From: a bacterium
GTDB taxonomy: Bacteria; Chloroflexota; Chloroflexia; Chloroflexales; Kallotenuaceae
Direction of reading: 5' to 3'
Length of the DNA: 39,525 nt
Assembly (NCBI GenBank): GCA_016781505.1
Contig: JADDQF010000035.1
Coordinates: 1-39,525 of the forward strand
Part shown: positions 16,720 through 38,337 of the stretch, in pieces
How positions within the stretch are numbered: the stretch's first letter is position 1
Layout of the letters: each line of letters starts with the position of its first letter
Position numbers and translations under genes: made by a program
The notes under the pieces: model-generated
The model's input: only the letters and a program-made list of their open reading frames with translations
The model's database searches: none
What the model was told of the DNA's origin: nothing

Positions 16720-18153
16720 TTATTGGCCCGACACATTCATACCGGTGTAGTCTTCACCTGCTTGCGTTGGGTTGCCGGTGTAAACACGGGCGACCGTAAC
16801 CAGGCTACCGGCGTCTGCCAGCACAATCGCGCCACCGCCGAACGAGGTGCCCAGGCAGTCTGCACCGCCGCCGTACTCGCCAAAGCGACCACAGGGATCA
16901 AGCGCGTTACCAGCAGCTGGATTCGACGACGCCTTTTGACCAGCCGCGATGTTGCCGATGGTGTGAGTGCCAACAACCGAACCGTTGCGGTCGACGTACT
17001 GGACGCGCACGTTCGTGGCGGCCGTCGAGCTGATGTTCTGGATAGCGATGTCGGTGCGCTGCCGTGCGCCACTACCGAAGGTGGCGTTTGGCGACCAGCG
17101 CACATACGGCAGAGCGACGTTGGTCGAGCCGGTGCCTTCAACTGCGCCCAAGAAGGACGAGGTGATGTTACCGCCAGCGACCTTGCCTACCGCAACCAAC
17201 GTACCTGTACCATTAGTCCGCTCCACAATCGCCGAGCCGATCGAACCCCGTGGCATCTTGGCGCAGCCTGCGATACTCCGCTTAGCACCAGCCGGCAAGC
17301 TGTATGGACCGTCGATCACATCGGCTTGACCGTTGATCTTGTAGCGCACCTGGAAGTCAAGAGGAGCGCTCTGGCTGGCATTCTGCACAGCGTAGAACGT
17401 CGAGAAAAGCCCGACGTACTCACAGTTGGCCGACGGCATGTAAACGCGCGCGCCGCTGTTCGGCGTACCTTCAAAGCTCGAAGCGCCATTACCGTTGACT
17501 TGCAGCTCGTTGACGCCCACGACGACGTCGGTCGATGAGGACACAATTGCCGAACCGCTGAAGGTTGCGCCAAGCTCAGCGATTTGTGTAGCGTCGAAAT
17601 ACCTCGCAGCATTTGCCGCCAGGTTAGGAACCGTGATGGTATGAGCCGCGGTTGTGCTGCCAGCAGCAAAGAACTGAACCGTTACGTTCGCTGCGGCTGC
17701 GCCCGCGTTCTGTACCGAGAAGATGGTTGAGTAGTTCGAGCTGTTCTTCAGCACGGTTGCAACCAACTGCTTCGAAGCGCCGCGGCTGAAACCATTCGAC
17801 AAAGGACGGTTTGCGATTCCGCTGGCGAACTGCACAACCGTTGCGATAACTGGCTGCTCTGCAGAAAGAACTGCAGAACCTTTGAACGAGCTGCCTAGAC
17901 CGGTCACCGAGCCGACGAGCAATGACGCGCTCGCCTTCGGGTTCAGCGTGCCGGCCGAAAAGCTTGTGGCGGTGCCGTTGTTCTCAGGATAAAAGTCGAT
18001 GTTGACCGGTGTGGCTGTGGTACCAACATTCTGATACGTGATCGATACCTGGAACGCCGCACCATACGCCGCTGCGTCAGCCTCGCTTGGCATTACAACA
18101 GCTGCCAGACCAGTTACTGCCGCTAGGGCAAGACCCAATAATTTCCGCTTCAC
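16720..18153 (-). CDS. Secreted surface protein with four tandem beta-type modules
   Basis: 477 residues. A signal peptide is clear: MKRKLLG, a hydrophobic core, and an ADA cleavage site near residue 27. The rest is four diverged modules of about 100 residues. Each begins with a strand ending in a Q-N pair (ITYQNVG, FSVQNAG, YAVQNAS, IAIQNIS) and closes with a G-S-A or G-G-A strand (FKGSAVLS, FSGSAIVS, GSIGSAIV, FGGGAIVL) followed by a valine-rich strand. The composition is Ala/Ser/Thr/Gly/Asn-rich with few charged residues, as in extracellular adhesive or sheath proteins. No anchor, transmembrane helix or catalytic motif was seen. The start is GTG 18153, fixed by GGAGG seven bases upstream. 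It has its own promoter and strong terminator, so it is a single-gene unit and may be abundant. Confidence 0.75.
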   Translation of the reverse strand: MKRKLLGLALAAVTGLAAVVMPSEADAAAYGAAFQVSITYQNVGTTATPVNIDFYPENNGTATSFSAGTLNPKASASLLVGSVTGLGSSFKGSAVLSAEQPVIATVVQFASGIANRPLSNGFSRGASKQLVATVLKNSSNYSTIFSVQNAGAAAANVTVQFFAAGSTTAAHTITVPNLAANAARYFDATQIAELGATFSGSAIVSSSTDVVVGVNELQVNGNGASSFEGTPNSGARVYMPSANCEYVGLFSTFYAVQNASQSAPLDFQVRYKINGQADVIDGPYSLPAGAKRSIAGCAKMPRGSIGSAIVERTNGTGTLVAVGKVAGGNITSSFLGAVEGTGSTNVALPYVRWSPNATFGSGARQRTDIAIQNISSTAATNVRVQYVDRNGSVVGTHTIGNIAAGQKASSNPAAGNALDPCGRFGEYGGGADCLGTSFGGGAIVLADAGSLVTVARVYTGNPTQAGEDYTGMNVSGQ

Positions 18154-19664: not shown

Positions 19665-20840
19665 TCACGCTTGAAGATAGCGTTCGTAGAGCTGTCGATA
19701 GAGCTTGGCATACCGCTTAACGGTGTGCCGCATCGCGAATTGTTCGGCGTGCACTTCGGCGGCACGCGCCATTGCATGAGCGCATTGTCCTTGGGCATAG
19801 TGCTGCAGCATGGCCTGGGCGAGTGCGTGCGGATCGCGTGGCGGCACGAGCAGCCCTGTTTGCCCGTCGAGCACAAGATCTCGCGTACCCGGCACATCAG
19901 TAGCTACCACTGGCGTACCGACTAGCATCGCCTCAAGCACAACTGTCGGTAAGCCTTCCCACAGTGACGGCAGCACAAACACATCCAAGCTATCAACAAT
20001 ATCTATAACGTCGGTGCGCGCTCCGAGCAGAGTTATAGCATCGTCAAGCCCCAGCTCGGCAATTTGTGCGCGTAGCTCATCAGTTTTCTCGCCTTTGCCG
20101 ACGATGAGGAGCTGCGCATTCGGCAGCATGTTCCGCACGTGCTGCATTGCCTGGACCAGATAAGGCAGTCCTTTCTGGGGGCTAATGCGGGCAACCGTGC
20201 CAAACAAGGGGGTATCAGCGCCGATGCCGAACGCCGCACGCATATCCTTTCCTGTTCGCTGCGCTTGCACGACTTCCGCGTCAACGCCGTTGTGAGCATA
20301 CTGTGCGTGGGCTTGGGCTAACCTTGCAGACCAGCGTTGGTCGAGCAGCTTGACAATGGCCTGTGAAACAGCCATTTCTTGCGTGCAGATGAAAGGATAC
20401 AGCATATGCATGAGCCTGCCAAGCCGTGGTTGGAAGGTCCACTCTAGCTCTGTATGCCCCGTACGCACCAGAAGTGGCGCAGCGCCAGTCAGTCTGAGTG
20501 CCACACCCACAATATCCGCAAACTCATTATGGGTATTGATGATATCCGCACGCCAGCGACGAATCTGGCGGTAGCACCCAGCAAAGGCCGAAGCAGTATC
20601 GATACGTATTGTGTCACGGAACGGAGCGCCGTAAAAGATTGGAATACCCTGCGCCGCGATCGCGCGGTGCCAACGACGTTCGACCGGCGTATCGTAGGAC
20701 CAGAGGCAGCACAGCGCAACATCAAACTGTTCACGAGCCAAAGATTCGGCCATGCGAATACCAAACAACTCGGAACCACCACCAAGATCACCGACCGAGA
20801 ATCCGGCTATAATTTGGACAACCCGAATCTTTTTGTTCAT
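19665..20840 (-). CDS. Family GT4 glycosyltransferase
   Basis: 391 residues with a GT-B fold. The N-domain glycine loop is SVGDLGGGSELFGIRMAESL. The C-domain has the nucleotide-sugar site GTVARISPQKGLPYLVQAM, and the family motif EGLPTVVLEAMLVGTPVVAT includes the paired glutamates. It transfers a sugar from a nucleotide donor to a growing lipid-linked glycan at the cytoplasmic face. Its ATG overlaps the stop of the pyruvyltransferase gene by four bases (ATGA), so the two are translationally coupled. Sugar and linkage unknown. Confidence 0.9.
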   Translation of the reverse strand: MNKKIRVVQIIAGFSVGDLGGGSELFGIRMAESLAREQFDVALCCLWSYDTPVERRWHRAIAAQGIPIFYGAPFRDTIRIDTASAFAGCYRQIRRWRADIINTHNEFADIVGVALRLTGAAPLLVRTGHTELEWTFQPRLGRLMHMLYPFICTQEMAVSQAIVKLLDQRWSARLAQAHAQYAHNGVDAEVVQAQRTGKDMRAAFGIGADTPLFGTVARISPQKGLPYLVQAMQHVRNMLPNAQLLIVGKGEKTDELRAQIAELGLDDAITLLGARTDVIDIVDSLDVFVLPSLWEGLPTVVLEAMLVGTPVVATDVPGTRDLVLDGQTGLLVPPRDPHALAQAMLQHYAQGQCAHAMARAAEVHAEQFAMRHTVKRYAKLYRQLYERYLQA

Positions 20841-22129
20841 CCTTTGCCTACAACCATCCGCAGCAGTGCAGGCAGGGTCTGCTTCGTGCGGCCCGCACGC
20901 TGGACATACGCGCTAGCCTCCGGCTGAACAGCCTGCTGTTGTAATCGACTGAACATCGCCCCGAGTTGCTCTGCCGTTAACTCATTAATGTCACAGCACC
21001 AATCGGTAAGCCCTACCGCGCCCAAAACCCCTGCCGTTTTTTGCAGGTAGCCGATGGCGATGCTTGGTACGCCTGCATTTAACGCCAGAATAACGGAGTG
21101 CAATCGTGTCCCGACAAAATAATCCATTTCGCCATAAGCCGCCTGAATCACATCCGGCGGGAGCACATCGTCGATCAGGATCACTCGACGCGCTTGCGCA
21201 ACACGTTCACGAAGCCGGGCATGCACCAGCCGATCATCCTCCACCGCGGTTGGCCCGCAGCATTGGTTGAAGAAGACAACAACGCCACCCTTAGCAGTAA
21301 TCGTATCGATAAAGCTAATCAGAGCTTGCTCGTAGCGCTGCTGGCGGTCGAAAGCTATGTTTTGTCCATGCCAGTTGATAGCAGTCATACCGACCAGAAA
21401 CGCCGGCTGTAAGGAGACGGCCCGAACATGCTCGCGCAGCTGCGCGGTCCGCTCGTCTGGCGCGGAGGTCATGCCAAAGGCAAGGTCCGGCGCGTACAAG
21501 GCGCGTTCAGCACAGCCTAGCGCCTGCAAGATAGCAAGGGATTGACGTTCACGTACAAAGGTCAGCCTCGCCCGCCGCACGATCCATTGCACGATACGGC
21601 GCTGTGGTATATCGTACAGTGGGCCAATTGATTGTGGCAACAGAACCAGCGGCTTACCCATAAGGACGGCAAGTACGCAGTTGATCAAGCGCAGATTAAA
21701 GCCACCTAGCACGCCGTCATGTGGGCCAGACGCATAGATATAGCCACCGCCACACGCTAACACAAGCTCGGCAGCGGCGAATGCACGTACAAGGTCATGT
21801 TTTCGGTCGTCCACAAAGAGTCGCGGGGTGAGGTGCGTGAGCCGATAGATCAGTGCCTGCAACACAAGCAGAACGATCAGTCCGGCCTGTCGCCAACGTG
21901 CAACCGCGACGGTTGTCTCGCCGTCTTCCGCGGTTCGCGTCATCCAGGTTAGCGGTGAACTGCGGATCGGGTAGCCTGGCAGCATTGCCTGGGCAGATAC
22001 CGTATCGTTAAAAGTGAGCACAATCTCGACCTGGGGCACGCCTGCTTGAAGCAGGCGCAGCGTTTCAACCAAGATCGCGTGATCGCCGACATTGAGGACC
22101 GAATGATTGTTAATCAGCAGGACCTTCAC
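20837..22129 (-). CDS. Polysaccharide pyruvyl transferase family protein
   Basis: 430 residues. The N-terminus INNHSVLNVGDHAILVETLRLL and the C-terminal block GTRLHSVILALNAGVPSIAIGY followed by LQKTAGVL are the signature of the CsaB/WcaK pyruvyltransferase family. Such enzymes add a ketal-linked pyruvate from phosphoenolpyruvate to sugars in exopolysaccharides or S-layer-binding polymers, giving negative charge. Some family members have other activities, so the reaction is likely but not certain. It overlaps the flippase gene upstream and the GT4 gene downstream, each by four bases. Confidence 0.85.
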   Translation of the reverse strand: MKVLLINNHSVLNVGDHAILVETLRLLQAGVPQVEIVLTFNDTVSAQAMLPGYPIRSSPLTWMTRTAEDGETTVAVARWRQAGLIVLLVLQALIYRLTHLTPRLFVDDRKHDLVRAFAAAELVLACGGGYIYASGPHDGVLGGFNLRLINCVLAVLMGKPLVLLPQSIGPLYDIPQRRIVQWIVRRARLTFVRERQSLAILQALGCAERALYAPDLAFGMTSAPDERTAQLREHVRAVSLQPAFLVGMTAINWHGQNIAFDRQQRYEQALISFIDTITAKGGVVVFFNQCCGPTAVEDDRLVHARLRERVAQARRVILIDDVLPPDVIQAAYGEMDYFVGTRLHSVILALNAGVPSIAIGYLQKTAGVLGAVGLTDWCCDINELTAEQLGAMFSRLQQQAVQPEASAYVQRAGRTKQTLPALLRMVVGKG

Positions 22130-23415
22130 TGCCGCAGCCCACGAACAGCAACCAGAGCGCCCGTACAGTACAGGATAAACAGCACTGCTTCCACCGCCAC
22201 ATACAAGAATGCTGCGCCATTCGAGCCGTACGCGGGGATCACGAAGAAGCCTCCAACAACGCTTACGGCGACGGCGACGGCTTGCAGCATCACCCGCCAG
22301 TGGGCCTTGTTACAAGACAGCAGAACTGCCACACATACGAAACTGCCCGACTTAATCAACGGAACAACGCTCATGATGCTGACAAATGGCAGGGCTGCAC
22401 CGTACTCCTGTCCGAACAGCACGGTGACGAGCATATCCCCCATTAGCCACAGGCCGACCCAAACGCCAACGCCATAGCATAAAACACTGCCAGCCATAGC
22501 TCGCACAAGTCCCCGAAAGCCCTGACGGGAAAGACCCGGCGCATTCAGCAGTGGCAGCCCGACGTAGAATAACAGGCTCGGTATCAGGAACATGAACGAA
22601 ATTGTGTGTAGCGCTGTGCGATAGATGCCAACAGTGGCCGGCTCGACTGTAGCGCCAAGAATTGCTATCCCCGCTTGGCTGTACAAGTTTCCGAGAACGT
22701 CGGCGGCAACAAATAACCATGCTCCCTTAACCAAGTGCCGCAGCTTGACGAAGTGCTCCAGATCCGGGGGATAAAGCTGCCAAATCTTGGCCAGCAAAAT
22801 CAGGGTTATGAAAATATTGCAGGCAGCCTGAATACTGAGGAGCGCAAAGACACTCTGCTGTGTATTCGCCGTTGTTGCCAGCAGAATGAGAACGGACAGT
22901 GGAGTAAGTGTTTGGAAGATTGCGACGCGCACATTCTGTTGCGTTGCGCGCAGTGCGCTATAACCCGTTTGGGCAAAACTATCAAAAATGATCGCGGCAA
23001 CTCCAACCACGAACGCCGACGATAGAACAATGTCACTTGACCAGGCAATCGTAAGCAATGCAAGGAGGACTGCTGCACCAAATGTTTTAACAAAGAGGAC
23101 TTGCCACACATTCTGCACCAACGATGCCGGGTCGCGTCCACCTTCTTGCAGGATCCACGTGTCAAGCCCCATCCCCAAAAGGCTCGCTAGGAGGCCAAGC
23201 GATGTTGTGACGGTGGCGTACTCACCGTATAGCAGTGTTCCGAGCCGCCTTACGATCAGAATCTGTACGAGCGTCATCAGCAAGCGTGCGATAAACGCTC
23301 CCGAAATTGCGGCCGCAACTTGACTGAACAGCACCTTAACCAGTGCTGTAGGCGAGTAGCTTTCCGTTGTGATGCGCTGCCGCCAGTAAGCCGTCAGTGA
23401 TTTATATACTGTCAT
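22126..23415 (-). CDS. Wzx-type oligosaccharide flippase
   Basis: 429 residues with about twelve to fourteen hydrophobic segments, opening with VAAAISGAFIARLLMTLVQI and LGTLLYGEYATVTTSLGLLAS, the characteristic start of polysaccharide-biosynthesis (MATE/MOP superfamily) flippases. It would move lipid-linked repeat units across the cytoplasmic membrane for a Wzy-type pathway. No Wzy polymerase was clearly identified nearby; the GT-C-like 690-residue protein is one possible candidate. It overlaps the pyruvyltransferase gene. Confidence 0.9.
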   Translation of the reverse strand: MTVYKSLTAYWRQRITTESYSPTALVKVLFSQVAAAISGAFIARLLMTLVQILIVRRLGTLLYGEYATVTTSLGLLASLLGMGLDTWILQEGGRDPASLVQNVWQVLFVKTFGAAVLLALLTIAWSSDIVLSSAFVVGVAAIIFDSFAQTGYSALRATQQNVRVAIFQTLTPLSVLILLATTANTQQSVFALLSIQAACNIFITLILLAKIWQLYPPDLEHFVKLRHLVKGAWLFVAADVLGNLYSQAGIAILGATVEPATVGIYRTALHTISFMFLIPSLLFYVGLPLLNAPGLSRQGFRGLVRAMAGSVLCYGVGVWVGLWLMGDMLVTVLFGQEYGAALPFVSIMSVVPLIKSGSFVCVAVLLSCNKAHWRVMLQAVAVAVSVVGGFFVIPAYGSNGAAFLYVAVEAVLFILYCTGALVAVRGLRQ

Positions 23416-23472: not shown

Positions 23473-24381
23473 TTATAATGCTCGTTGATCTTCCCATCCT
23501 CTCCGCCCCTGGATCTGTGGAAACTCTTTGAGGGGTTGGATCAGGCCTTCCCCGATACCTTTGAGAAACGGCGGTATAAAGTGTCGTTGGCGCTTTGCAA
23601 GAAATTCGCGGAGCGCAAAGTAGCCCAAGTGCAGCACCATTGCCAGATACGGCACAGCGCTATGCCGCCGATAATAGATGGCACCGCTTCGCCCGTGCAT
23701 CCGCCAAAAGAGGGGAGACTCTGGCTGTGTACTTTGCGACACTTTGTGCCACAACGCAGCCTGTGGTACGCCCAGAATCAATAGCCCTGCCTTGCGTATC
23801 CGCACCGACAGGTCCAGATCTTCCCACATAAAGAAGTAGGTCTCGTCCAGCAAGCCGGCCTGCTCAAAGGCGCGGCGAGTGATCAGAATACAGCTGCCAA
23901 TCGCGTACTCCAGCACACGCAGCGGATCACCTGGTCTCTGCCGCCGCTTTTCCATGATGATCGCCGGCGGGAACCAGCGATAGCGGCCTCCAGCCGACCA
24001 AATTTTTGTCGGGGCGTTGAAATAGAAGGCAGTAGGCACAAGAATTCCGGCCTGAGGATGTTGGGCAGCGTGAACAAGATGGTGCAATAGATCAGGGCTG
24101 ACGGCCGTATCATTGTTCAGCATCACAACGCCGTCCGCCCCATGTTCTAACGCATAACGAAATCCAACGTTGTAACCAGCCGGCACCCCAAGATTACCTG
24201 CGTTTTCGATAAGGTGTACTTCTGGAAAATCGCTTCGGACGCGTACCGGAGTTCCATCATTTGAAGCATTATCTACGACCACAACGTGATAATTGGGATA
24301 GGTGAGCGCACGCAATGACCGGAGACATTCGAACGTATCGGCATAATTGTTCCACGTCAGAACAATGATCCAGACCGACAT
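23473..24381 (-). CDS. Family GT2 glycosyltransferase (rhamnosyltransferase-like)
   Basis: About 302 residues from ATG 24381. GT-A features: WIIVLTWNNYADTFECLRSL at the N-terminus, VVVVDNASNDGT for the nucleotide site, NAGNLGVPAGYNVGFRYAL, and the metal-site region VMLNNDTAVS. The later LLDETYFFMWEDLDLSVRI contains the ED motif that supplies the catalytic base. It transfers a sugar, often rhamnose in close relatives, from a nucleotide donor. The start is uncertain: no ATG in this frame has a convincing ribosome site, and longer forms from 24450 or 24516 are open. The locus has an AT-rich 200-bp gap just upstream, probably a secondary promoter. Confidence 0.85.
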   Translation of the reverse strand: MSVWIIVLTWNNYADTFECLRSLRALTYPNYHVVVVDNASNDGTPVRVRSDFPEVHLIENAGNLGVPAGYNVGFRYALEHGADGVVMLNNDTAVSPDLLHHLVHAAQHPQAGILVPTAFYFNAPTKIWSAGGRYRWFPPAIIMEKRRQRPGDPLRVLEYAIGSCILITRRAFEQAGLLDETYFFMWEDLDLSVRIRKAGLLILGVPQAALWHKVSQSTQPESPLFWRMHGRSGAIYYRRHSAVPYLAMVLHLGYFALREFLAKRQRHFIPPFLKGIGEGLIQPLKEFPQIQGRRGWEDQRAL

Positions 24382-24583
24382 GTACGGGAATGTACGATTG
24401 TCCACAATCTTTTGAGGCTTCACCGAAACCAAATCAGAACCTATATTCATCGTACAAATAAAAAACGCACGATTTGACGTTGCAACCCAACACTTTGCCA
24501 AAGATGGACGCTTCACGTAAATAAGAATAAAAAGTTGCGAACCGTAGCTTTAATAGCTCGGCGTAAATATTTATGAGGCCCAA
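24382..24583 (-). promoter_or_regulatory. AT-rich gap, probable internal promoter region
   Basis: About 200 bases, clearly AT-richer than the surroundings, between a methyltransferase and the GT2 gene. One possible arrangement is TTAAAG, 18 bases, TATTCT on the minus strand. It may restart transcription within the glycan locus. Confidence 0.25.
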
Positions 24584-25279
24584 TTAATCGCTACTGCATT
24601 CCCGGCGTGTCACTCGTCCAAAAATATGCCCACGCTCACCTTGGCGGCGCGGCTGATCAGCCGCAAAACACCAGCGTGTCCCAACGTCCGCCAAAGCCGG
24701 CGCTATCCGATCAAGCACATGCAGTGGCACAAACGCAGCCCGCAGAAATGGCTCATCCCAGAAGAAGAGCTCCATCTGCCAGCTGGTGTCGGGCAATAAT
24801 CTGTGTAGCTGCTCCACGGTATAGCCATTGCGTACATGGCCAAACACATGATTGGCATACGGCTGCACAAACGAAGGCCACAGCCTTGCAGCGCGGGCCG
24901 GGGTGCTGAACCACAGCGTGCCGCCGGGAGCCAGTACGCGCAGCAGCTCGTGCATAACCTTACGATCCTGCTCAATATGCTCAAGCACGTCAAAGGCCAG
25001 GATGCAGCTGAATCGCCCATCACCGATCGGCAGCTGTCGCGCATCGGCCTGGATAATTTCCGGCCCGCCGACCGAACGGGCCCGCGGAGCAAGGTCAACG
25101 CCAACCCGCAGCCGCGCAGCGCTTTGATACAAAAAGCTGGCGTCATCGCAGCCGACGTCAAGCATGCGCTCGCCGTGGAGATCGAGCGCAAGCACATGAT
25201 TGGCGACCAGCCAGCGGTAATACGAGGCAAAATATGGCCGTGTCCGGCCAGGTGTTTTCAGTGATACACGTTCAGCCAT
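24584..25279 (-). CDS. SAM-dependent methyltransferase
   Basis: 231 residues from ATG 25279. Motif I is MLDVGCDDASFLYQSA, the acidic strand end is GVDLAPRA, and the post-motif FDVLEHI plus LLRVLAPGGTLWF block is canonical for Methyltransf_11. It overlaps the preceding GT4 gene by 22 bases, so the pair is coupled. It probably methylates a locus sugar or lipid intermediate (inference). An ATG at 25300 would add seven residues with deeper overlap. Confidence 0.85.
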   Translation of the reverse strand: MAERVSLKTPGRTRPYFASYYRWLVANHVLALDLHGERMLDVGCDDASFLYQSAARLRVGVDLAPRARSVGGPEIIQADARQLPIGDGRFSCILAFDVLEHIEQDRKVMHELLRVLAPGGTLWFSTPARAARLWPSFVQPYANHVFGHVRNGYTVEQLHRLLPDTSWQMELFFWDEPFLRAAFVPLHVLDRIAPALADVGTRWCFAADQPRRQGERGHIFGRVTRRECSSD

Positions 25280-26457
25280 TGCAGTGCCAGCCGATCCCAA
25301 CGATAAGCGGCGCTACGCTTGCGTGCAGCCGCCGCCAATTGCGCTCGACCCTGTTGATTTTCAACGACCTCGATGATTCCGTTCGCCAGCGCTTCAGCGC
25401 TACCGGGCGTGACAAGCACACCTGCATCCTCGCGCAACATCTCGCCGCGATCGCCGACGTTGCCGGTGACGACGGGAACACCCAGGGCCAGGCTTTCCAC
25501 GATCTTAAGCGGTGAACGAGCGCGGGCAACGGCATCATCAGCAACCGGATCGACCGAGCACGTCGCGAGTGCCAGAAAGGTGGGCACGGCCGAGGCGGCA
25601 ACCGCGCCAACAAACAACGCCCGCGCGCCTAAACCTAGCGCTGCGGCCCGCCGTTCAAGCTCGTGGCGATCCTCGCCATCGCCAACCAGCAACAGTCGGG
25701 CAGTCGGCACCCGCTCGGCAACCAGAGCAAACGCATCCAGCAACAGATCAACATTATGCGTTGTCTTGCTCAGCGTTCCGACATACACCACCAGCGGTTC
25801 GGAACCAACGCCAAGCGCGGATCGCAGTCCTGCTACCTGCCGGGTCGGTGGATCGTTAAGTCGCGCCGGAGCCACGCCGTTCGGCACATACTGTATCCGT
25901 GCCGCGGGCACACCCAACGCCACATAGTGCTGCTCTAAAAATCGGGTATTGACGGTTACCGCGCTTGCAACTTGGGGCAATTGGTCTTCCCAAAACTGCA
26001 CGACGCGCTGCTGCCAAGCGGCGCCAAAGCGATTACCACCCGCTTCATAATCATCACAATCAACACACAGCCGACGCCGTGAGCCCTGGGCTGCCAGCAC
26101 TCCCGCTAAGCCGTTGATGGGCTGCGGCTTGCATACATGGACAATGTCTGCGCCGACCTGAAACGCTGCCCGCGCCAGTGCCGCCGCGCCCAGCAGCGAA
26201 ACATACAACAGCGGCAGCGGACGATAATATCGACGCTGTCCAACCGGCCCGTACACGTGCATCTGGCCGACGTAGTGTACCACGACTCCCGCGTGTTCCT
26301 GTCGGCGCTGAGCGATTGGCAGTTGATCATAGGTGTGGTGCAGCAACAATAGCTGCGGCGCGTGCCCGAGCTTGGCCAACTCCTGGGCCAGGGGCAGCCA
26401 CCTGCCCCGTGGCGACGGATAATCAAGACTGGAGGTGCCTAGAAATGCGATCCGCAT
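25258..26457 (-). CDS. Family GT4 glycosyltransferase
   Basis: 399 residues with a GT-B fold. N-domain MRIAFLGTSSLDYPSPRGRW. C-domain VVYVGTLSKTTHNVDLLLDAF, VGDGEDRHELERRA, and a modified acceptor-side motif ARARSPLKIVESLALGVPVV, which keeps only the second glutamate of the usual E-x7-E. The lysine before IVE is common in one GT4 branch. It acts at the cytoplasmic membrane face in repeat-unit assembly. It is 29 bases downstream of another GT4 gene. Confidence 0.85.
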   Translation of the reverse strand: MRIAFLGTSSLDYPSPRGRWLPLAQELAKLGHAPQLLLLHHTYDQLPIAQRRQEHAGVVVHYVGQMHVYGPVGQRRYYRPLPLLYVSLLGAAALARAAFQVGADIVHVCKPQPINGLAGVLAAQGSRRRLCVDCDDYEAGGNRFGAAWQQRVVQFWEDQLPQVASAVTVNTRFLEQHYVALGVPAARIQYVPNGVAPARLNDPPTRQVAGLRSALGVGSEPLVVYVGTLSKTTHNVDLLLDAFALVAERVPTARLLLVGDGEDRHELERRAAALGLGARALFVGAVAASAVPTFLALATCSVDPVADDAVARARSPLKIVESLALGVPVVTGNVGDRGEMLREDAGVLVTPGSAEALANGIIEVVENQQGRAQLAAAARKRSAAYRWDRLALQWLNVYH

Positions 26458-26486: not shown

Positions 26487-27677
26487 TCATAACACTCGTG
26501 GCGACGCCAGCCACGCGTCGGACTGCTCATCCTGCGCTGCAACCAGGGGATCGGAAATTTCCTCGATCAGATGGACCAGTGGCATCCACGAGGCCGATTC
26601 TTTGGAAACACAAATGTTATGGGTTAAGGGGTCACCCAAATTGTCTTGAAAATAGCGGAGGATTGCATGGCTGAGCGCTGCGCTGTCGCCCGGTGGCACG
26701 ATCAGCCCCGTCCGGCCATCCTCAATGGTTTCAGGCATGCCGCCGACCGAGGTCGCGATAACCGGCGTTTCAAACCCAAGCGCAATCTGCGCGACACCGC
26801 TCTGCGTTGCTTCCAGATAGGGCAGCACAACCACATCGGCCGCCGAGAAATACACGGCTAGCTCCTCGTTGGGCACGTACTCGCTGTAAAATTGCACCGC
26901 AGCGTTGAGGCCAAGCTGGCGCACCAGGTCGTGATAGGGACGAGCGTCTTCCCAAAACTCGCCCACAACCAGCAGCCGTACCGGCATTTGCTCGCGCACC
27001 GCTGGCAACGCTTTGAGCAAGTGGCGCAAGCCTTTGTAGCGCCGGACGAAGCCAAAGAACAGAACCACCGGCTCGTCGTCGGACAAGCCGAGCTTGGCCC
27101 GCGCTTCGCTCCGCTGCAACGGCGTCCTGCTGAACACATCGTAGGGGGGATGCGTTGTGCCTTTGATGTTGGCCCACGGCAGCGCCCGGCGCAGCAGCGC
27201 AAAATCTTCCTCGCTCATCACAATAAACGCATGGCCACGCCACAAAATCCGGCGCAGCAGGTACCAGTCGAAAACGCCACCGTCGGGCGAGATAATATGG
27301 TGACACAAAAACAGGATGCGTGTTTTGGTGTACCGCCGAATCATTCTGGTAAGAAAGAAAAGCATCGGTGACCAAAACGGCGTCCACCATTGCAGGATCA
27401 ACAGATCCGGTGCTTCGCGCTTGATGATGCGGAAGGTGCGCCACCATGACAAAAAGCTCATCGGCGTCAAAATGCGATCGCAGTCGACACGCAGCGCGGT
27501 ATCGCTAGGACTTGGGTCCATTGCCGTGTTGCCGGGATACAGCCATTTAGGATACTGCTTCAAATAGGAGATAAAGCGAACGCTGTGCCGCAAGCGTAGG
27601 TGCTGCACCAGCAAGGTTGTATAGTGAGCAATACCGCCGCGAAAGGGATAGGTCGGCCCAATGACCACAATTCTCAT
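26487..27677 (-). CDS. Family GT4 glycosyltransferase
   Basis: 396 residues. N-domain VVIGPTYPFRGGIAHYTTLL with the GGI loop. C-domain VVLFFGFVRRYKGLRHLLKAL, VVLPYLEATQSGVAQIALGF and SVGGMPETIEDGRTGLIVPP. The acceptor motif has Glu and Ala-Gln variants of E-x7-E. It resembles the first-step or early sugar transferases of Chloroflexota exopolysaccharide loci, though donor and acceptor are not readable. It is downstream of the LuxR-Kelch gene by about 51 bases. Confidence 0.85.
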   Translation of the reverse strand: MRIVVIGPTYPFRGGIAHYTTLLVQHLRLRHSVRFISYLKQYPKWLYPGNTAMDPSPSDTALRVDCDRILTPMSFLSWWRTFRIIKREAPDLLILQWWTPFWSPMLFFLTRMIRRYTKTRILFLCHHIISPDGGVFDWYLLRRILWRGHAFIVMSEEDFALLRRALPWANIKGTTHPPYDVFSRTPLQRSEARAKLGLSDDEPVVLFFGFVRRYKGLRHLLKALPAVREQMPVRLLVVGEFWEDARPYHDLVRQLGLNAAVQFYSEYVPNEELAVYFSAADVVVLPYLEATQSGVAQIALGFETPVIATSVGGMPETIEDGRTGLIVPPGDSAALSHAILRYFQDNLGDPLTHNICVSKESASWMPLVHLIEEISDPLVAAQDEQSDAWLASPRVL

Positions 27678-27728: not shown

Positions 27729-29216
27729 CTACGACCCAGGCAGCAAGGTTCGAAACAGCGCTTGGTAGCTATACATGGTTGTCGAGAACGCGCCAGGCCC
27801 GAGCTTGCCGCCGAGAATCATGATCGTTTCATCAAAAAGCGTCGCGCCGGGCTGACTGCCGATGATCGCCGGAGCTTCAAACGATTGCCAGCGCTCAGTA
27901 CGAGCGTCGTATTGGAGCGCATCGGCCGCCGCGTCGCCGCCAAAAACATAGATGTTCCCCAGTGCGACGGCGGTGCTAAACCTGCTCCGCGGGCGGGGCA
28001 AGGGCGGGCGATTAACCCAAGGCTGCGTGTCTTCCTGCGCCGGCAAGTATTGCTCATTATTTGCCACCGGCCCCGCCTTGTTCTCGCCGCCCAGCACAAA
28101 GATGCTGCCCTCGACCACGGCCGCATCGGCAAAGGCGCGCGCCGTGGGCATCGCTTCGAGCTCGCTCCAGGCGTTCCCGCTGGGATCGTAGGCAAACACT
28201 TCATCCCGGTAGCTCGTGCCATCCCAGCCACCAAACAGGTATAGCTTGCCCTCGAGCGCGGCCAAGCCATAGCCGCTGCGTGGCTGCGGCAGATCGGCGA
28301 GCTTTTCCCAGCGGTTGGTCCGCGGATCATAGCGTTCAAACGCAGCGACGATATCCTTTGGATCAGCCGAGCGGCGGCCACCTGGTATGTACAGCTTCTG
28401 GCCAATCGTCACAGCCCGCACATCGGTCACAGGCGTCGGCTTTTGCGCCCGCTCCTGCCAATCGCCGGAGCGGGGCTCGTACCGCTCAACCGTGTTGAGC
28501 ACGCCACGCTCATTTTCACCGGCGATCACAAACAGTTGCTCCCCAACCGCTGCCAGTGCAAAGCCGGCACGGGCGGTTGGAAGTGCGGCCAACTCTTTCC
28601 AGCGGGCTTGATTGAAACGAGCAGCCTCTTGTGTTTGCGCATCCCCTGCGTCACCCGCCCGCACCAGCCAAGCTACTGCCACACCCCCTAGCGTCAAAAC
28701 CAGCAAGCAGATCGCCAGCAGCGCAAGCATAGCCTTTGATCGACGACCTCGAGGCGTATTGACGGCTGTATCACGCGGCGCAACAGCTGGCGTTACCACA
28801 GCTGGTTGTGGTTCGGCTCGATCTTGGAATGGCGGCGGTGTTTCGGCTGTTTGCGGCAGTGCCCCAACCTCGGGCGCGCTGGCCCCGTTGTCGTCCGGCA
28901 GGGGTGCAGTGGTCTCCGGCTCTGGCTCGGCGACCAGCTCCTCGGCAGCAGGCAGCGGCAACACTTCGCTTTCCCCGACGGGGGATGGACCGGCGACGGC
29001 ACGATCAACAGTGACAATCCCGGTACGAACGGCGTACATGGATGCTTCAGTACGTGAGGCGGCGCCGATTTTCCCAAACACATTGCGCAGGTGGACCTTG
29101 ACGGTGTTGATGCTGATGCCAAGTTCGTTTGCGATCTGTTGATTGGAACGACCGCTGGCCACAAGGTAGAGGATTTGCCGTTCGCGCTCGCTTAGCTGTT
29201 GGGTCTCGTTGATCAT
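27729..29216 (-). CDS. Membrane one-component regulator: LuxR-type HTH, TM helix, extracellular Kelch repeats
   Basis: 495 residues. Residues 5-64 are a GerE/LuxR-type HTH (LSERERQILYLVASGRSNQQ and ELGISINTVKVHLRNVFGKIG). A Pro/Glu-rich linker (65-157) leads to RGRRSK and one transmembrane helix (161-186), which places the HTH inside. Residues 206-490 hold about six Kelch repeats, each with W-x-x-L or W-x-x-R, a GG-like glycine pair after a hydrophobic strand (IYVFGG, LYLFGG, IFVLGG) and a YDP or YEP turn. Kelch propellers bind sugars or proteins. The layout resembles ToxR/CadC-type regulators but with different domains at both ends. It has no receiver domain, so it is not a response regulator. 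In the middle of the glycan locus, it could sense extracellular glycan and control the locus (inference). Start ATG 29216 lacks a clear ribosome site but begins the HTH naturally. Confidence 0.85.
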   Translation of the reverse strand: MINETQQLSERERQILYLVASGRSNQQIANELGISINTVKVHLRNVFGKIGAASRTEASMYAVRTGIVTVDRAVAGPSPVGESEVLPLPAAEELVAEPEPETTAPLPDDNGASAPEVGALPQTAETPPPFQDRAEPQPAVVTPAVAPRDTAVNTPRGRRSKAMLALLAICLLVLTLGGVAVAWLVRAGDAGDAQTQEAARFNQARWKELAALPTARAGFALAAVGEQLFVIAGENERGVLNTVERYEPRSGDWQERAQKPTPVTDVRAVTIGQKLYIPGGRRSADPKDIVAAFERYDPRTNRWEKLADLPQPRSGYGLAALEGKLYLFGGWDGTSYRDEVFAYDPSGNAWSELEAMPTARAFADAAVVEGSIFVLGGENKAGPVANNEQYLPAQEDTQPWVNRPPLPRPRSRFSTAVALGNIYVFGGDAAADALQYDARTERWQSFEAPAIIGSQPGATLFDETIMILGGKLGPGAFSTTMYSYQALFRTLLPGS

Positions 29217-29288
29217 GCGATTAATCGGTCGTCCATTGGCCCAGCCAACTTTCCGAGTGATGGATCATGCCACACAACCATGCCAGCG

Positions 29289-31361
29289 TCAAGGATTGGG
29301 ACGAACTGCAAAAATAGTGACACCATCCGCATCGTAGACGGGAATGAACAGGGGATTACCAAACAAGAGCTCGGGCTTGATTGGCCCGCCTTGTTTGCCT
29401 AAGAAAACATGGGTGATCTGCTGCTCGCGTACCAGCTGCTCCAGCGCTGCTTGATCGGTCGGCCGGAGCGCGCGAATGCGTTGGTTGAGCGCTTCGACCG
29501 CCTGTTTGTAGGCAGGACCGCCATAAATATACATCGCCGGCGGAGTTGTAACCCACCGTTGCGCTAAAGGTAAAAGCCACCAGCCCGCATCTGTGCCACG
29601 CGGCGATCCGTTCAGCCAATCCGCGCTGTTGACCAAAAACCGTGCATCCGGCGCGGTATGGGTTGCCGCCCATTCCAAGGCTGGCATATCCGCCGGAGTA
29701 GCCAGCACCGTTCGCGCATTCACAACCGGTATTTGGAAACGATTGAGGTTCCAGGCGGGCGGCAAGGGTATTCCGCTCAACTGCCACGTGCCAAAGAGTG
29801 CAATTGCGGCGGCTGCGGCTCCGCCGACAAGCTTAGCTGCAGGGTGCACGGAGCGCGCGAGGAGCGGCCGCAGCCAGATTAATGCTTGGTCGATGCAGAA
29901 CGCCGCCAAAATCCCCACGGGCAAAAATAGCGCGATAATCACGGTCTGGTTGGTAACAAACCAGGATGGTGGTAGTCCAAGGATCGTTGGATTTGCCAAC
30001 ACGCCGAGCGCTGCAACCCACGCCGCGACGGCGACGATCCGCCAGCGCGCCATGAGCATAGCCCAGATCGCGCCGATGCCCGCCAGCGAGAACAACAGCC
30101 AGTTGTTGCCAACCAGCAGCAAGCCCCAATCAACACTGTTGTAATCAGCCGGGCCGGCTAGCTTTTGCGGCTGGACTGCAACGGGCACGAGCACCTTCCG
30201 CACCATCGTCATCACCCACGGGCTCGCCAAGAGCGCCGCCAGCGTGCCCATCACGGCCACGCGCGCCACGACCTGGCCTGCCTGTTGTGGCCGCTGCACA
30301 ATTGCCACACCCGCATACACCACCGCGAAAACCACGTAAAAGGTGAGCACTTGGTAGTGAATCAGCATGAGCCCGCTGAGCAGCAGCGCATTCAGTCCAC
30401 ACAGCCGCCAGTCAAACGTTGGCCGCTCAAGGAGGGCCACAAGCACGATCATCAAGCTCGGCAAAACCAGCAGACCCGTCAGCTGGGTGTAACGGCCCCA
30501 GGTGACATAGTAGGCGGGGAACAACGACAACAAGCCTACCACACCGCCCGCAATCAGGCCGGCCCGCGGCGAGCGTAGCAAAAACGAGGCGACGCCATAC
30601 ATGGTCACGGCCATCAGCGCGTTGAGCGCTTGTCCGCCCCACAGGACGGCCAATGCAATCGGAAGCGCGGCAACTACCTTGAGCGTCGCAATAACCGTGT
30701 GATAACCCCAGTGATACACCAGCGGGTCAACCGGCATGTATGGTTCCAGCGAGGTTGGAATGCGCCCGGTTTCGGCCACAATGCGCGCCAGCAGTGTATG
30801 GTGCAGGGAATCGACCCACAGCGGGAGTACCACACCGCGTATCTCCACCGCCCGGGTGAAAGCCACGAGCAGGAGCAGCCCAAGCCAGCTGCCGAGCAAC
30901 CACAGCGGTACGCGTCGACTCCCGCTGCGTTGCCAACACCAGCCCGCCAGCAGCACAACGCCGAGTGCTTGGCCACGCAGCACCGCTGGTGTTAGGTGTA
31001 GGCCGAGCGTACTGCTCCACAAAAACAGAAGCGGAACGATGCAGAGGCTCAGACTAAGCCACAGTGCGGGTGCGGCCAGACGCGGCAGACGCAGCTCGAC
31101 GTCGACCAAAGACCATACGATATAGCCGGGGCCAAAGAGCACAATGCCCGCTGCCACCAGCAGCCGCCCCACAGGTCCACTGGCAAAGAGCGCCAGCCCA
31201 AGCAAAGCTAATGTTATGGGAATCGCCGCCCGCACAAACACCGATCTTCTCCGCAATCTTGAAAAGCGATCACCTGGGCAGATGGACGTGTGTCGGTAGT
31301 GTACCAACCGGCAGTTGATTTTGGTGACGTTGCGCCGCCGGAAGGCCAACAGGACCGGCAC
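29289..31361 (-). CDS. Large polytopic membrane protein, GT-C-like glycosyltransferase or polymerase candidate
   Basis: 690 residues with about twelve to fourteen hydrophobic segments, then a soluble C-terminal part (about 560-690). The first large loop carries a WVDSLHHTLLARIVAET stretch with Asp and paired His, as in GT-C fold enzymes that use polyprenyl-phosphate sugars. Another loop has YHWGYHTVIATL. No specific family assigned; a Wzy-like polymerase is a second possibility. Start uncertain: ATG 31361 (AGGA five bases upstream) or GTG 31241 (GGAG seven bases upstream), the latter starting nearer the first membrane span. It is co-directional with the M23 peptidase upstream and the Kelch regulator downstream. 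Confidence 0.7.
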   Translation of the reverse strand: MPVLLAFRRRNVTKINCRLVHYRHTSICPGDRFSRLRRRSVFVRAAIPITLALLGLALFASGPVGRLLVAAGIVLFGPGYIVWSLVDVELRLPRLAAPALWLSLSLCIVPLLFLWSSTLGLHLTPAVLRGQALGVVLLAGWCWQRSGSRRVPLWLLGSWLGLLLLVAFTRAVEIRGVVLPLWVDSLHHTLLARIVAETGRIPTSLEPYMPVDPLVYHWGYHTVIATLKVVAALPIALAVLWGGQALNALMAVTMYGVASFLLRSPRAGLIAGGVVGLLSLFPAYYVTWGRYTQLTGLLVLPSLMIVLVALLERPTFDWRLCGLNALLLSGLMLIHYQVLTFYVVFAVVYAGVAIVQRPQQAGQVVARVAVMGTLAALLASPWVMTMVRKVLVPVAVQPQKLAGPADYNSVDWGLLLVGNNWLLFSLAGIGAIWAMLMARWRIVAVAAWVAALGVLANPTILGLPPSWFVTNQTVIIALFLPVGILAAFCIDQALIWLRPLLARSVHPAAKLVGGAAAAAIALFGTWQLSGIPLPPAWNLNRFQIPVVNARTVLATPADMPALEWAATHTAPDARFLVNSADWLNGSPRGTDAGWWLLPLAQRWVTTPPAMYIYGGPAYKQAVEALNQRIRALRPTDQAALEQLVREQQITHVFLGKQGGPIKPELLFGNPLFIPVYDADGVTIFAVRPNP

Positions 31362-31406: not shown

Positions 31407-33008
31407 TTACGGCAAGTAGCGCATGGGGTTGACCGCCTTGCCATTGCGCTTAACGGTGAAGTGCAGGTGCACACCGGTGGAATATCCGCCGCCCCGCCGA
31501 TCATACGTGCTGCCCATCGAGCCGATGCGATCACCCGCATTTACACGCGCGCCAACTCGGACACTCGGCTGGCTAGTCAGATGACCATACTCCGTCACAA
31601 AGCCATCGCCATGGTTGATCTTGACACAGTAGCCATAGCCGCTGCACCAGCCCGCAGCGATCACCCTGCCGGCACGAGCGGCACGGACGGGCGTGCCTCT
31701 GCGGTTCGCAATATCCACCCCGTTGTGGAAGCGACCAATCCGGAAATTACGGTAGCCAAAGCCCGACGTTAGATCGCCCGATGTTGGCCACACCCAGCGA
31801 CCACTGGCCACCGGCGCAGGTGCTTCTGCCGCTTTCGTTTCGGCTGCGGGAGCTGGCGCGGCTGGCTCAGCCGGCTGCACCTCCACAACAGGCAAGCTCG
31901 GCACATCGGTCACTGCCGCAACCTGATCGGCAATGCCATCCTCGACACCCAGCAGGTCGGCGGCAATCCAGCCTTCGGTGCCATGGGGCGTCCGAACCTT
32001 GAACCAATTCTCGTGTCGCCCGATCAACGCGACTTGAACATCGCCTTGCAGCTTGGCAATCTTTTCAAATTCAACACTTGGCCCAACCCGGATGCGGGTT
32101 TCGTCGTCGAGCACCATGCCGACCGCAATCGCGGTCACTTCCGAAGCCGAGGCTTCGGCTGGCCCGGTGCCAATGGCCGTTGCGCTGGGGATGAACAGCT
32201 CTTCGCCAGGGAGCAATGCCCGCCCGGAGCTCAGGTTATTGGCCGGGAAGAAGCGGATGGTGCTGGACGGCACATGGTATTGCTCGGCGATACTTTCCAC
32301 CGTTTCGCCATCGACAACCTTGTGCGGAAACCCGGAAACCCGCGGAATACGCAGCACTTGCCCAATCGCGAGCATTTTGGGATCGATCTGATTCGCCGCC
32401 ACGATCGCCATCACCGACACATTGTATTGCTGGGCGATTTGACCAAGCTTCTCGCCGAGCGCAACCTTGTGCGTGGCCACAAATGCCGAGCCCGCAACGA
32501 CCTGGCGCGGCAGCAGGGAAGGCACGAGCGAATCCTGCATCTCGTTGACCACAGACACCCGCTGCGTTGTTAACGTATCACCCAACACCACTGGCACCGC
32601 TACCCCAGCATGGACCTCAAGCTCGTCCGCATCGGCGACATGGTCGGTTGCGACCGTGGCACCCTGCGTCCAATCCATGCCGAGTGCCAGCCCGGGAAGT
32701 CCGCGCGTCGCAATCACGATCAGCACCAGGCTTAACACCGTCGCATGGCCGGCAAAGCGGCGTGGCAGCATCCACATGTGATGGGGCGTGTGAGCCCGAC
32801 TAGCGGGATGCGTAACCGCAGTGTTGGTTGCCGCGGATGCTCCGCGTTCCAGATAATCAAGGGTAGCCCAAGCATTTTGGGCGGCGGTTCGTTGGCGTTG
32901 CCAAAAGAAGAAGGATAGGCGAGGCCGTCGCTGGATGAAGAGTTGTGGATCGTCTAAGACCGGCACATGATCGAAGTGCGATGCCCGATCGTGGGGCTGC
33001 GCGTTCAA
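31407..33008 (-). CDS. LysM, SH3 and M23-peptidase cell-wall hydrolase
   Basis: 533 residues. A cytoplasmic N-terminus (1-88) is followed by one hydrophobic segment (about 89-109) that anchors or exports it. Two LysM domains follow (about 179-222, HKVALGEKLGQIAQQYNVSV, and 228-274, HKVVDGETVESIAEQYHVPS), then an SH3-like domain (about 294-354, TRIRVGPSVEFEKIAKLQGD). The C-terminal M23 zinc peptidase (about 414-529) has His428 and Asp432 in HNGVD, His476 in YGHL, and His514 and His516 in VHLHF. It would cut peptidoglycan peptides outside the membrane, or act in septum or envelope remodelling. The start is TTG 33008, fixed by an AAGGAGG six bases upstream; a longer frame opening at 33086 has no site and reads through non-protein-like sequence. 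Confidence 0.9.
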   Translation of the reverse strand: MNAQPHDRASHFDHVPVLDDPQLFIQRRPRLSFFFWQRQRTAAQNAWATLDYLERGASAATNTAVTHPASRAHTPHHMWMLPRRFAGHATVLSLVLIVIATRGLPGLALGMDWTQGATVATDHVADADELEVHAGVAVPVVLGDTLTTQRVSVVNEMQDSLVPSLLPRQVVAGSAFVATHKVALGEKLGQIAQQYNVSVMAIVAANQIDPKMLAIGQVLRIPRVSGFPHKVVDGETVESIAEQYHVPSSTIRFFPANNLSSGRALLPGEELFIPSATAIGTGPAEASASEVTAIAVGMVLDDETRIRVGPSVEFEKIAKLQGDVQVALIGRHENWFKVRTPHGTEGWIAADLLGVEDGIADQVAAVTDVPSLPVVEVQPAEPAAPAPAAETKAAEAPAPVASGRWVWPTSGDLTSGFGYRNFRIGRFHNGVDIANRRGTPVRAARAGRVIAAGWCSGYGYCVKINHGDGFVTEYGHLTSQPSVRVGARVNAGDRIGSMGSTYDRRGGGYSTGVHLHFTVKRNGKAVNPMRYLP

Positions 33009-33015
33009 ATACGCC

Positions 33016-33022
33016 CCTCCTT
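33016..33022 (-). promoter_or_regulatory. Ribosome binding site that fixes a TTG start
   Basis: AAGGAGG on the minus strand, six bases before TTG 33008. It decides the start of the M23 peptidase. Confidence 0.8.
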
Positions 33023-33103
33023 GGGTAGGCCAATGCTCGCGGCACGCGGGTACACCGCAGCAAACTATGACCACACGGGCAAACATGGCCCATGGCTTCG
33101 GCT

Positions 33104-33190: not shown

Positions 33191-34033
33191 TTATCGACGC
33201 TGGACCACCAACACCAGTGGCAGCTTGTCAAACGAGTCGACTTGCACGTTTGCTTGATCAGTTTTGACATACAAACCCGTGGAGCTGCCGCCATCCAGAT
33301 TTAATGCCGCGTCGAGCTCAAGGTCTGAGTTTTTCAAAACATTGGCCAGCTCTGGCAGCGTGAATGTATTTGTGTCGCTGACGATCAGCAGAATCCGCCC
33401 ATGAATATCACGGGCGATCACGCTGCGCCGCGAGCGATCATTATCAGGTTCCAGGTCCGAAACAACGCCGCCCGGCTGAATCAGCATCGGCGAGGACTGC
33501 ATCGCCTGCTGTAACGTTTCATCGGGATCGAAGGGCTGCTGGCGCAGGGAGCGAAGCTCAAACTGGCCTTGGGCGTTGACGACCACCATGCCGCCAAAGC
33601 CTTCGTACGATTCGCCCGTGCGAATACCGTCAAAAATAACCAACGCGGTCGCTTTGCCTTGTTGATCAAAATAGCCGCCGTTGATGATCGCCAGCGGCTT
33701 GATCGCTTCGTACCATTCGCGCAGTGAGCCAGCGTTGGCCACATCATACTTTACCCGAATGGAGTAGGATGCCGGGTCGAGCCGCACCATCGTCAGATGG
33801 CCCGCTTGCCCGTTCACATCGAAGCGCGCCGAGCGCAGCTCCATCGCGCTGTCGATCTGTTGCCAGGTGGTGGCTGGCGCAGATGCAGCCGCAGCCGCAA
33901 GTGGCTGCCCCACGCCGGAAAGCGGTGCGGAAGCGGCCGGTTGTGGCTGGAGCGGCTCAACCTTGCAGCCGAACAACACGCCAGCAACTAAAACGAAAAT
34001 GGGAAGGCTGTGACGCAGCCGCGGCCTGGGCAT
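33191..34033 (-). CDS. Lipoprotein of the phosphodiester glycosidase (NAGPA) family
   Basis: 280 residues. A lipoprotein signal ends in LFGC with Cys23, then a low-complexity Ala/Pro linker. The catalytic-type domain (about 70-278) shows LAIINGGYFDQQGKATALVIFDG, GGMVVVNAQGQF, and near the end LNLDGGSSTGLYV. These match the NAGPA family (phosphodiester glycosidase, related to the lysosomal uncovering enzyme), in which the two glycine-rich DGG/NGG elements form the active site. It may act on envelope glycans outside the membrane. Start ATG 34033 has GGAGGAG seven bases upstream, preferred over the frame opening at 34120. It is divergent from mutS. Confidence 0.85.
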   Translation of the reverse strand: MPRPRLRHSLPIFVLVAGVLFGCKVEPLQPQPAASAPLSGVGQPLAAAAASAPATTWQQIDSAMELRSARFDVNGQAGHLTMVRLDPASYSIRVKYDVANAGSLREWYEAIKPLAIINGGYFDQQGKATALVIFDGIRTGESYEGFGGMVVVNAQGQFELRSLRQQPFDPDETLQQAMQSSPMLIQPGGVVSDLEPDNDRSRRSVIARDIHGRILLIVSDTNTFTLPELANVLKNSDLELDAALNLDGGSSTGLYVKTDQANVQVDSFDKLPLVLVVQRR

Positions 34034-34059
34034 GAACACACTCCTCCAAGTCGCACGGT

Positions 34060-34068
34060 ATTGTAGCA
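34060..34068 (-). promoter_or_regulatory. Candidate extended -10 for the glycosidase-family lipoprotein
   Basis: TGcTACAAT on the minus strand, with no good -35. It would give a leader of about 20 bases. Confidence 0.4.
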
Positions 34069-34165
34069 TACGCGCTACTGTGGTAGTCGTTTTGGTTGTC
34101 GTGATCATGGTTATCCACAAACGGTGGACAAGCTGTGGAACAAATATTCTAGCGTCGCAACGCTA

Positions 34166-37432: not shown

Positions 37433-37716
37433 TTGCATAAGCTATCCCCGGTTTGGCCAAGGTTGGTTGCTTGAATGTATCCCCTGTTTCGGCAACCTTC
37501 GCTGCGGATCTAACCTCGTTCATGTTAAAGCCAGTTGTTTGGCAGTTTTTTGGCTGGCTTGCAACTGTCCACTTGCACTTGTTTGCAATTTTTCCAAGGC
37601 GCTGCTGCCGTAGGCGTATCTTTTTGTTCGGTCCCGCGTTTTAATTGTCACAGGGGATCGAACAATTTGTTATATGCGTATGCGGAGGACGTTGCGCGAG
37701 GCTAGGAGTGCGTCCC
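37433..37716 (+). other. Leader between the riboswitch terminator and the ECF sigma gene
   Basis: A 284-bp stretch with no gene. It has several T-runs and weak repeats (AAGGTTG at 37459-37465 and its complement at 37493-37499; AAGCCAG and CTGGCTT near 37527-37556). No second promoter with acceptable spacing was found, so the ECF gene probably depends on read-through from the riboswitch. Confidence 0.5.
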
Positions 37717-38304
37717 ATGCCCAGCTCTATCGATCTTCCATCGGCCATCGCACGTGCGCGTGAGGGACAGGCTCAGGCAATACGTGAGTTGTACGATGTG
37801 TATTCCGATCCCGTGCGTCGGTATTGTTACGTCCGGCTTGGCGATAGCGAGTCGGCACAAGACTGTGTACAAGAAGTATTTGTTTGCATCTGGAAAGGTG
37901 TCAAGAACTTCGAGTACCGCGGGGATTTGTCGTTCACTGCGTGGTTATATACCATCGCGAACAACGTACTCGTCAGCTACGTGCGCAAACGCCGGCGGGT
38001 ACAACAGGTGCCGCTCACCCCGGAGCTCAACTTAACCGATCCGCGTAGCCATGACTCGGCCCGGAACATTTGTGATCGGCTGGCGTTACGCGACGCGATC
38101 AGTCAGTTGACGACGGAGCAACAGCAGGTTATAACTCTCAAGTTCTTTGTGGGCTTGTCCAACCTAGAGATTGCCGAAATCGTGGGCCGCAGCGAAGGCG
38201 CTGTCAAGGCGCTGCAACATCGTGCGATCAACCGATTGCAGCATATTCTTTCGAACGAATGCGCCAGTCTATTCGCCGACTTCAGTGTGGGAGAGATGGC
38301 GTAA
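37717..38304 (+). CDS. ECF-type RNA polymerase sigma factor
   Basis: 195 residues. Region 2 (about 20-95) has IRELYDVYSDPVRRYCYVRL, DCVQEVFVCIWKGVKNFEY, FTAWLYTIANNVLVSYVRKR; region 4 (about 130-180) has LTTEQQQVITLKFFVGLSNL followed by EIAEIVGRSEGAVKALQHRA. Sigma factors of this type recruit RNA polymerase to stress or envelope promoters. Start ATG 37717 has AGGAG eight bases upstream; the more upstream in-frame ATG at 37645 lacks one. The following gene encodes a membrane protein likely to be its regulator. Upstream are the c-di-GMP riboswitch and terminator, so its level should follow c-di-GMP. Confidence 0.92.
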   Translation: MPSSIDLPSAIARAREGQAQAIRELYDVYSDPVRRYCYVRLGDSESAQDCVQEVFVCIWKGVKNFEYRGDLSFTAWLYTIANNVLVSYVRKRRRVQQVPLTPELNLTDPRSHDSARNICDRLALRDAISQLTTEQQQVITLKFFVGLSNLEIAEIVGRSEGAVKALQHRAINRLQHILSNECASLFADFSVGEMA

Positions 38305-38337
38305 CGGTGGTTGAGTCCATGTCAAGAGGATGGAACT

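Follow-up and report, generated by a model that had tools for sequence, protein, structure and literature searches.

The window analysed here, a stretch of DNA of 39,525 nucleotides, carries on its minus strand a gene in which a LuxR-type DNA-binding domain, a membrane helix and a Kelch propeller are joined, and which lies among genes for glycan synthesis. The question that this locus raises is what such a protein could sense and which genes it could control. The protein, which we call the regulator, probably turns genes for cell-surface sugars on or off in answer to an external signal. We somewhat favour the view that it is a transmembrane transcription regulator whose LuxR-type head and propeller sensor control the exported-glycan locus; it would then bind DNA, signal by means of dimers, recognise a ligand, and activate or repress a regulon. 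Its domains, fold, predicted topology and orthology were computed, as was the conserved glycan/GT-C neighbourhood. The parts of the gene, with the evidence for each, are the following.

27729..29216, minus strand: the regulator, 495 aa, in the order GerE helix-turn-helix, linker, transmembrane helix, Kelch propeller (open reading frame, Pfam, AlphaFold model)
29264..29292, minus strand: promoter-like site of the regulator, TTGACG-17-CATGAT, with TG before the -10 (extended -10) (sequence)
29013..29201, minus strand: GerE/LuxR-type helix-turn-helix, aa 6-68 (Pfam, model, conservation)
28737..29012, minus strand: disordered linker rich in Pro, Ala and Glu, aa 69-160 (model, conservation)
28659..28730, minus strand: single transmembrane helix, about aa 163-186, with RGRRSK just before it (hydrophobicity, model)
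27753..28601, minus strand: six-bladed Kelch propeller, aa 206-488 (Pfam, model, structure comparison)

The reading frame is intact, starts with ATG and has its bounds exactly at 27729 and 29216; a chance open reading frame is ruled out, given that the regulator is conserved in many genomes. The first-pass annotation had described a LuxR-type helix-turn-helix (HTH) fused through the membrane to a Kelch propeller, and this description is borne out by GerE and Kelch matches above the Pfam cut-offs, by one transmembrane (TM) segment and by a confident AlphaFold model built on 41 relatives. A DNA-binding domain and at least one TM region in a single chain are what define a transmembrane transcription regulator, and this protein has both, namely GerE and one TM segment. 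The Pfam matches include no receiver, histidine kinase or autoinducer-binding domain, which supports the one-component logic that had been proposed for this protein. Two more familiar identities were discarded: an ordinary response regulator, for want of a receiver domain, and a quorum-sensing LuxR protein, since the HTH starts at aa 6-8 and there is no N-terminal autoinducer domain among the Pfam matches.

The DNA-binding head is N-terminal. GerE (PF00196) matches aa 7-62 with an E value of 4.3e-20 and 71.5 bits, the cut-off being 23.5, so that the Pfam gathering score for membership of the LuxR/GerE HTH superfamily is exceeded. In the AlphaFold model this region forms four helices (aa 10-64, pLDDT about 96), and the nearest solved structures, aligned over approximately aa 6-67, are the DNA-binding domains of VraR, VpsT and NarL. 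The TVKxH motif of the recognition helix is intact, and residues K40, V41, H42, R44 and N45 are invariant across 41 relatives. The HTH has a mean relative entropy of 3.11 bits, versus 1.4-2.3 for the blades of the propeller, and no other part of the family is as well conserved; from this conservation it is probable that the relatives recognise similar DNA.

The linker that follows is poorly conserved (0.47 bits) and has a pLDDT of about 40-50; a long and unconserved segment is as expected for a tether. It leads to the sole hydrophobic segment of the protein, aa 163-181, with a Kyte-Doolittle mean of 2.74, and in the model the helix spans aa 162-203, running past the membrane. The net charge of the flanks is +4 on the N side and -1 on the C side. 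Among the relatives, 62/69 have exactly one TM segment, and their N side has a mean net charge of +1.6 versus +0.5 for the other flank, the N side being the more positive in 44 and the less so in 12. The more positive N flank, together with the N-terminal position of the DNA-binding domain, places the HTH inside and the propeller outside; thus the arrangement proposed from the first reading, i.e., an inside HTH, one TM helix and an outside propeller, agrees with the prediction drawn from TM counts, flank charges and the model. A long disordered linker and a single TM helix would also suit a releasable domain, so that the HTH could be freed by proteolysis, with a cut outside and then another within the membrane, once the propeller had been engaged or sheared, and act as a soluble factor. 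We consider this very improbable, given that no protease gene was recognised among the conserved neighbours of the regulator and that nothing in its sequence demands such a step.

The sensor that we assign to the regulator in the favoured reading, i.e., that of a membrane-bound transcription factor, is the propeller. Kelch families match over about aa 205-470, above their cut-offs (Kelch_1, PF01344, E 1.1e-43; PF24681, E 6.4e-44), and aa 206-488 are modelled as six blades with a pLDDT of about 98, in line with the residues 200-495 given earlier for this domain. The six repeats close a ring, as in a Kelch propeller, and the blades are marked by six tryptophans that are invariant or nearly so (W206, W253, W303, W350, W400 and W443) and by six GG-type doublets. 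Judging from the repeat register, the last blade appears to be closed by the first strand (W206), which comes right after the TM stalk. Within the propeller, conservation is highest in blades 2 and 3, where K259, P260 and P278 are near-invariant, and our guess is that a binding site lies there. A NanM or mutarotase-like enzyme was considered and ruled out, with scores of 71.9 and 61.1 bits versus family cut-offs of 416 and 256, respectively. The nearest solved folds are NS1-BP, KEAP1 and the designed SAKe Kelch propellers, with Z scores of 36-38. Ligands of Kelch propellers include both proteins and sugars.

The regulator belongs to a family that keeps its domain order unchanged in full-length relatives of 34-58% identity. 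A scan with one genome per species gave at least 439 relatives, and the best 80 of these are all from Chloroflexota, comprising members of Chloroflexales, Anaerolineae, Ardenticatenia and Thermoflexus. When a profile was run at E <= 1e-50 against 400 sampled genomes of this phylum, 62 were matched, mostly with one full-length copy each: 36/40 in the order to which the regulator belongs, 0/14 in the other orders listed for its class, and 26 genomes elsewhere in the phylum. Its own genome encodes 14 GerE proteins; only in the regulator does a TM segment come after an HTH at the N-terminus, the other 13 having the HTH at the C-terminus. In a search of plasmids, 723 records matched one domain, and none covers 80% of the regulator or carries both of its parts; therefore, there is no sign of a mobile origin. 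The composition had been called unusual, and it is so among known regulators; within Chloroflexota, in contrast, it is ordinary, given this mostly single-copy orthologue family.

What the regulator could control is suggested by its neighbours, which are listed below from one end of the block to the other.

16720..18153, minus strand: homologue of a secreted beta-domain protein that we call C5 (homology)
19665..20840, minus strand: GT4 glycosyltransferase
20837..22129, minus strand: polysaccharide pyruvyl transferase (Pfam)
22126..23415, minus strand: polysaccharide flippase, Polysacc_synt (Pfam)
23473..24516, minus strand: GT2 glycosyltransferase (Pfam)
24584..25300, minus strand: SAM-dependent methyltransferase (Pfam)
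25258..26457, minus strand: GT4 glycosyltransferase (Pfam)
26487..27677, minus strand: GT4 glycosyltransferase, 51 bases downstream of the regulator and on the same strand (Pfam)
29289..31361, minus strand: polytopic protein of 690 aa with a GT-C/oligosaccharyltransferase fold, just upstream of the regulator (model, structure comparison)
31407..33086, minus strand: LysM-SH3-M23 peptidase, peptidoglycan hydrolase-like (Pfam)

Thus the regulator shares its strand with the LysM/SH3/M23 peptidase, the 690-aa polytopic protein, three GT4 and one GT2 glycosyltransferases, methyltransferases, the flippase and the pyruvyl transferase. The conservation of this neighbourhood was assessed with 25 genes of the window, not picked for recurrence, as queries against 17 regions around orthologues, 49 around further relatives (the far set) and 20 control regions of 20 kb taken at set positions in five genomes of the regulator's own order. 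Homologues of the 690-aa gene were found in 12/17 orthologue, 11/49 far and 0/20 control regions (Fisher p 3e-6 for orthologue versus control, a value that is indicative only, since the regions share ancestry and such p-values overstate their independence). The two GT4 genes beside the regulator recur in 10/17 orthologue, 13-14/49 far and 1/20 control regions, and the GT2 gene in 5/17, 16/49 and 0/20, respectively. The LysM/SH3/M23 peptidase is not a conserved neighbour (2/17 orthologue regions), and the queries from beyond the glycan block (MutS, ComEC, MFS and others) mostly have no or almost no homologues in the regions. The place in a glycan locus that had been noticed at first reading is therefore more than a feature of this one genome: glycan genes around the regulator recur near its relatives more than in random regions. 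Just past the glycan block lies a gene for a NAGPA (phosphodiester glycosidase-domain) protein, at 33191-34120 on the minus strand, with a homologue in 1/17 orthologue regions; at 37645-39525, on the plus strand, an ECF-type sigma factor gene is followed by one for a DUF5667 protein, cut off by the end of the window, and the two look like a sigma factor and its partner.

The association with glycan genes is not without exceptions. Three orthologues of apparent Herpetosiphon type have none of the tested glycan genes within 10 kb, their neighbours being a PAS histidine kinase, Tex and a phosphoesterase, and one Anaerolineae clade adjoins a BMP-type ABC transporter instead of glycan genes; the link is thus common and not universal. 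These exceptions, the promoter-like site that the regulator gene has of its own, and a mostly single copy per genome, as for a general regulator, would all fit a protein that controls something beyond the glycan locus, e.g., the general state of the wall or envelope, the neighbourhood then being an ancestral gene order that has simply been inherited. We regard this as unlikely, because the glycan association recurs in distant clades in which the surrounding gene order is different.

The most conserved neighbour, with homologues recurring across Chloroflexota, is the 690-aa gene. Its product matches no Pfam family, and its model has a mean pLDDT of 78.5. It resembles oligosaccharyltransferases (yeast STT3 and AglB) with Z scores of 23-24 over more than 420 residues, the best of these matches having a Z of 24.4 with 466 residues aligned at an rmsd of 5.1; the next matches are AftA and ArnT, with a Z of 20. 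As in the oligosaccharyltransferases STT3, AglB and PglB, a GT-C fold is combined with a C-terminal globular domain. In the alignment, D184, H187 and H188 are invariant in the first loop, and the C-terminal domain contains an invariant DxGWW (D591-W595) instead of WWDxG, which is the oligosaccharyltransferase motif. By its modelled structure, this is a GT-C protein of oligosaccharyltransferase-like shape. GT-C-fold enzymes act on the outside of the membrane, the side predicted for the regulator propeller.

This neighbour offers a different candidate for what the propeller binds. Like ToxR with ToxS, the regulator could bind a protein partner, the GT-C transferase or C5, and so signal the condition of the machinery for export or glycosylation and not the free polymer. 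In several relatives the GT-C gene, the most conserved neighbour, is immediately upstream of the regulator and on the same strand, and C5, whose only match is a weak one to CARDB, recurs near the regulator in 15 relative loci (Chloroflexota glycan loci); moreover, the closest solved propellers (KEAP1, KLHL and NS1-BP) are protein-binding domains. However, C5 was detected beside some members of the family and not all, and the similarity to KEAP1-type structures comes from the Kelch fold in general, which leaves this partner hypothesis rather doubtful. In one subclade (L066, L071, L080, L088 and L089) a TPR-like protein with one TM segment, C8, is encoded directly upstream of the regulator; it is possibly a different partner there.

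The first-pass annotation had also suggested a check of DNA-binding sites upstream of 27677, 29216 and 33008. When dyad words were searched for in 181 upstream regions of the relative loci, nothing stood clearly above shuffles or control regions, and no shared operator motif was obtained. A TGnTATGATC element is present at a similar place upstream of regulator orthologues; the only conserved upstream signal in the relative loci is the promoter -10 (TATGATC/TATAAT), which is indistinguishable from an overlapping operator. In Anaerolineae members L052, L055, L058, L068 and L085, TATAAT begins just 12 bases ahead of the regulator start codon, which suggests leaderless mRNAs.

Returning to the sensing of the glycan itself, the regulator could work as follows. 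The cytoplasmic HTH would be tethered by a flexible linker of approximately 90 residues, whose length would allow the domain to contact promoter DNA from its membrane anchor, and a single TM helix that extends into a short stalk would hold the six-bladed propeller at the outer surface. The propeller would bind a ligand present in the wall zone, for which the exported glycan is the likeliest candidate, or else a surface protein glycosylated by means of the adjacent GT-C transferase; the signal passing through one helix would alter the pairing or spacing of the HTHs on DNA, and with it the transcription of the surface-glycan locus around the regulator gene. We tentatively propose, as one possibility, that this conserved and mostly single-copy regulator of Chloroflexota uses its propeller to read the state of the surface glycan, with direct feedback to the genes in the GT-C (oligosaccharyltransferase-fold) glycan locus, i.e., that it is a product-sensing one-component switch without a kinase.

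Transmembrane transcription regulators are well documented, and the single-pass form is the commonest (56%); they share with the regulator a DNA-binding domain and a transmembrane region in one chain (PMC10269533). In its main text, that survey mentions neither LuxR/GerE nor Kelch, and the GerE-Kelch combination may be listed in it uncommented. No paper on the GerE-TM-Kelch architecture was found in the open-access literature, and we do not know of an earlier report there of these parts in combination. ToxR and CadC have the same order of an N-terminal cytoplasmic HTH, a linker, one TM helix and a C-terminal extracytoplasmic sensor (that of the regulator by prediction); in contrast, the regulator has a GerE HTH and not an OmpR-type winged helix, its sensor is a Kelch domain and it belongs to a different phylum. 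Trans_reg_C, the defining winged helix, is absent from its Pfam matches, so that it is not a member of the ToxR-like family, although in the favoured reading it works like ToxR and CadC. The LuxR regulators of Coriobacteriia (DadR, CadR and HcdR), for which control of adjoining genes was shown genetically, are also membrane proteins with a LuxR-type HTH; nevertheless, these 12-TM proteins have 10-12 N-terminal TM helices and a C-terminal HTH, whereas in the regulator the HTH comes first, followed by one TM helix and a large outside domain, and one E. lenta strain has 83 transmembrane LuxR proteins (PMC9734109) versus one copy of the regulator. VpsT, VraR and NarL are cytoplasmic, with an N-terminal receiver-type domain and a C-terminal HTH, unlike the membrane-bound regulator with its N-terminal HTH. 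KEAP1, NS1-BP, KLHL and the bacterial NanM share the six-bladed Kelch fold, but the propeller of the regulator, unlike those of KEAP1, KLHL and NS1-BP, occurs outside any BTB or ubiquitin-ligase protein.

The regulator offers a direct handle on the control of surface polymers in Chloroflexota: its ligand and its DNA sites are measurable with purified domains, and its gene adjoins that of a predicted extracytoplasmic glycosyltransferase. Among transmembrane transcription regulators, the Kelch propeller would be an addition to the sensors already known, and the regulator would show a second way, besides that of the 12-TM LuxR proteins, to put a LuxR-type HTH on the membrane.
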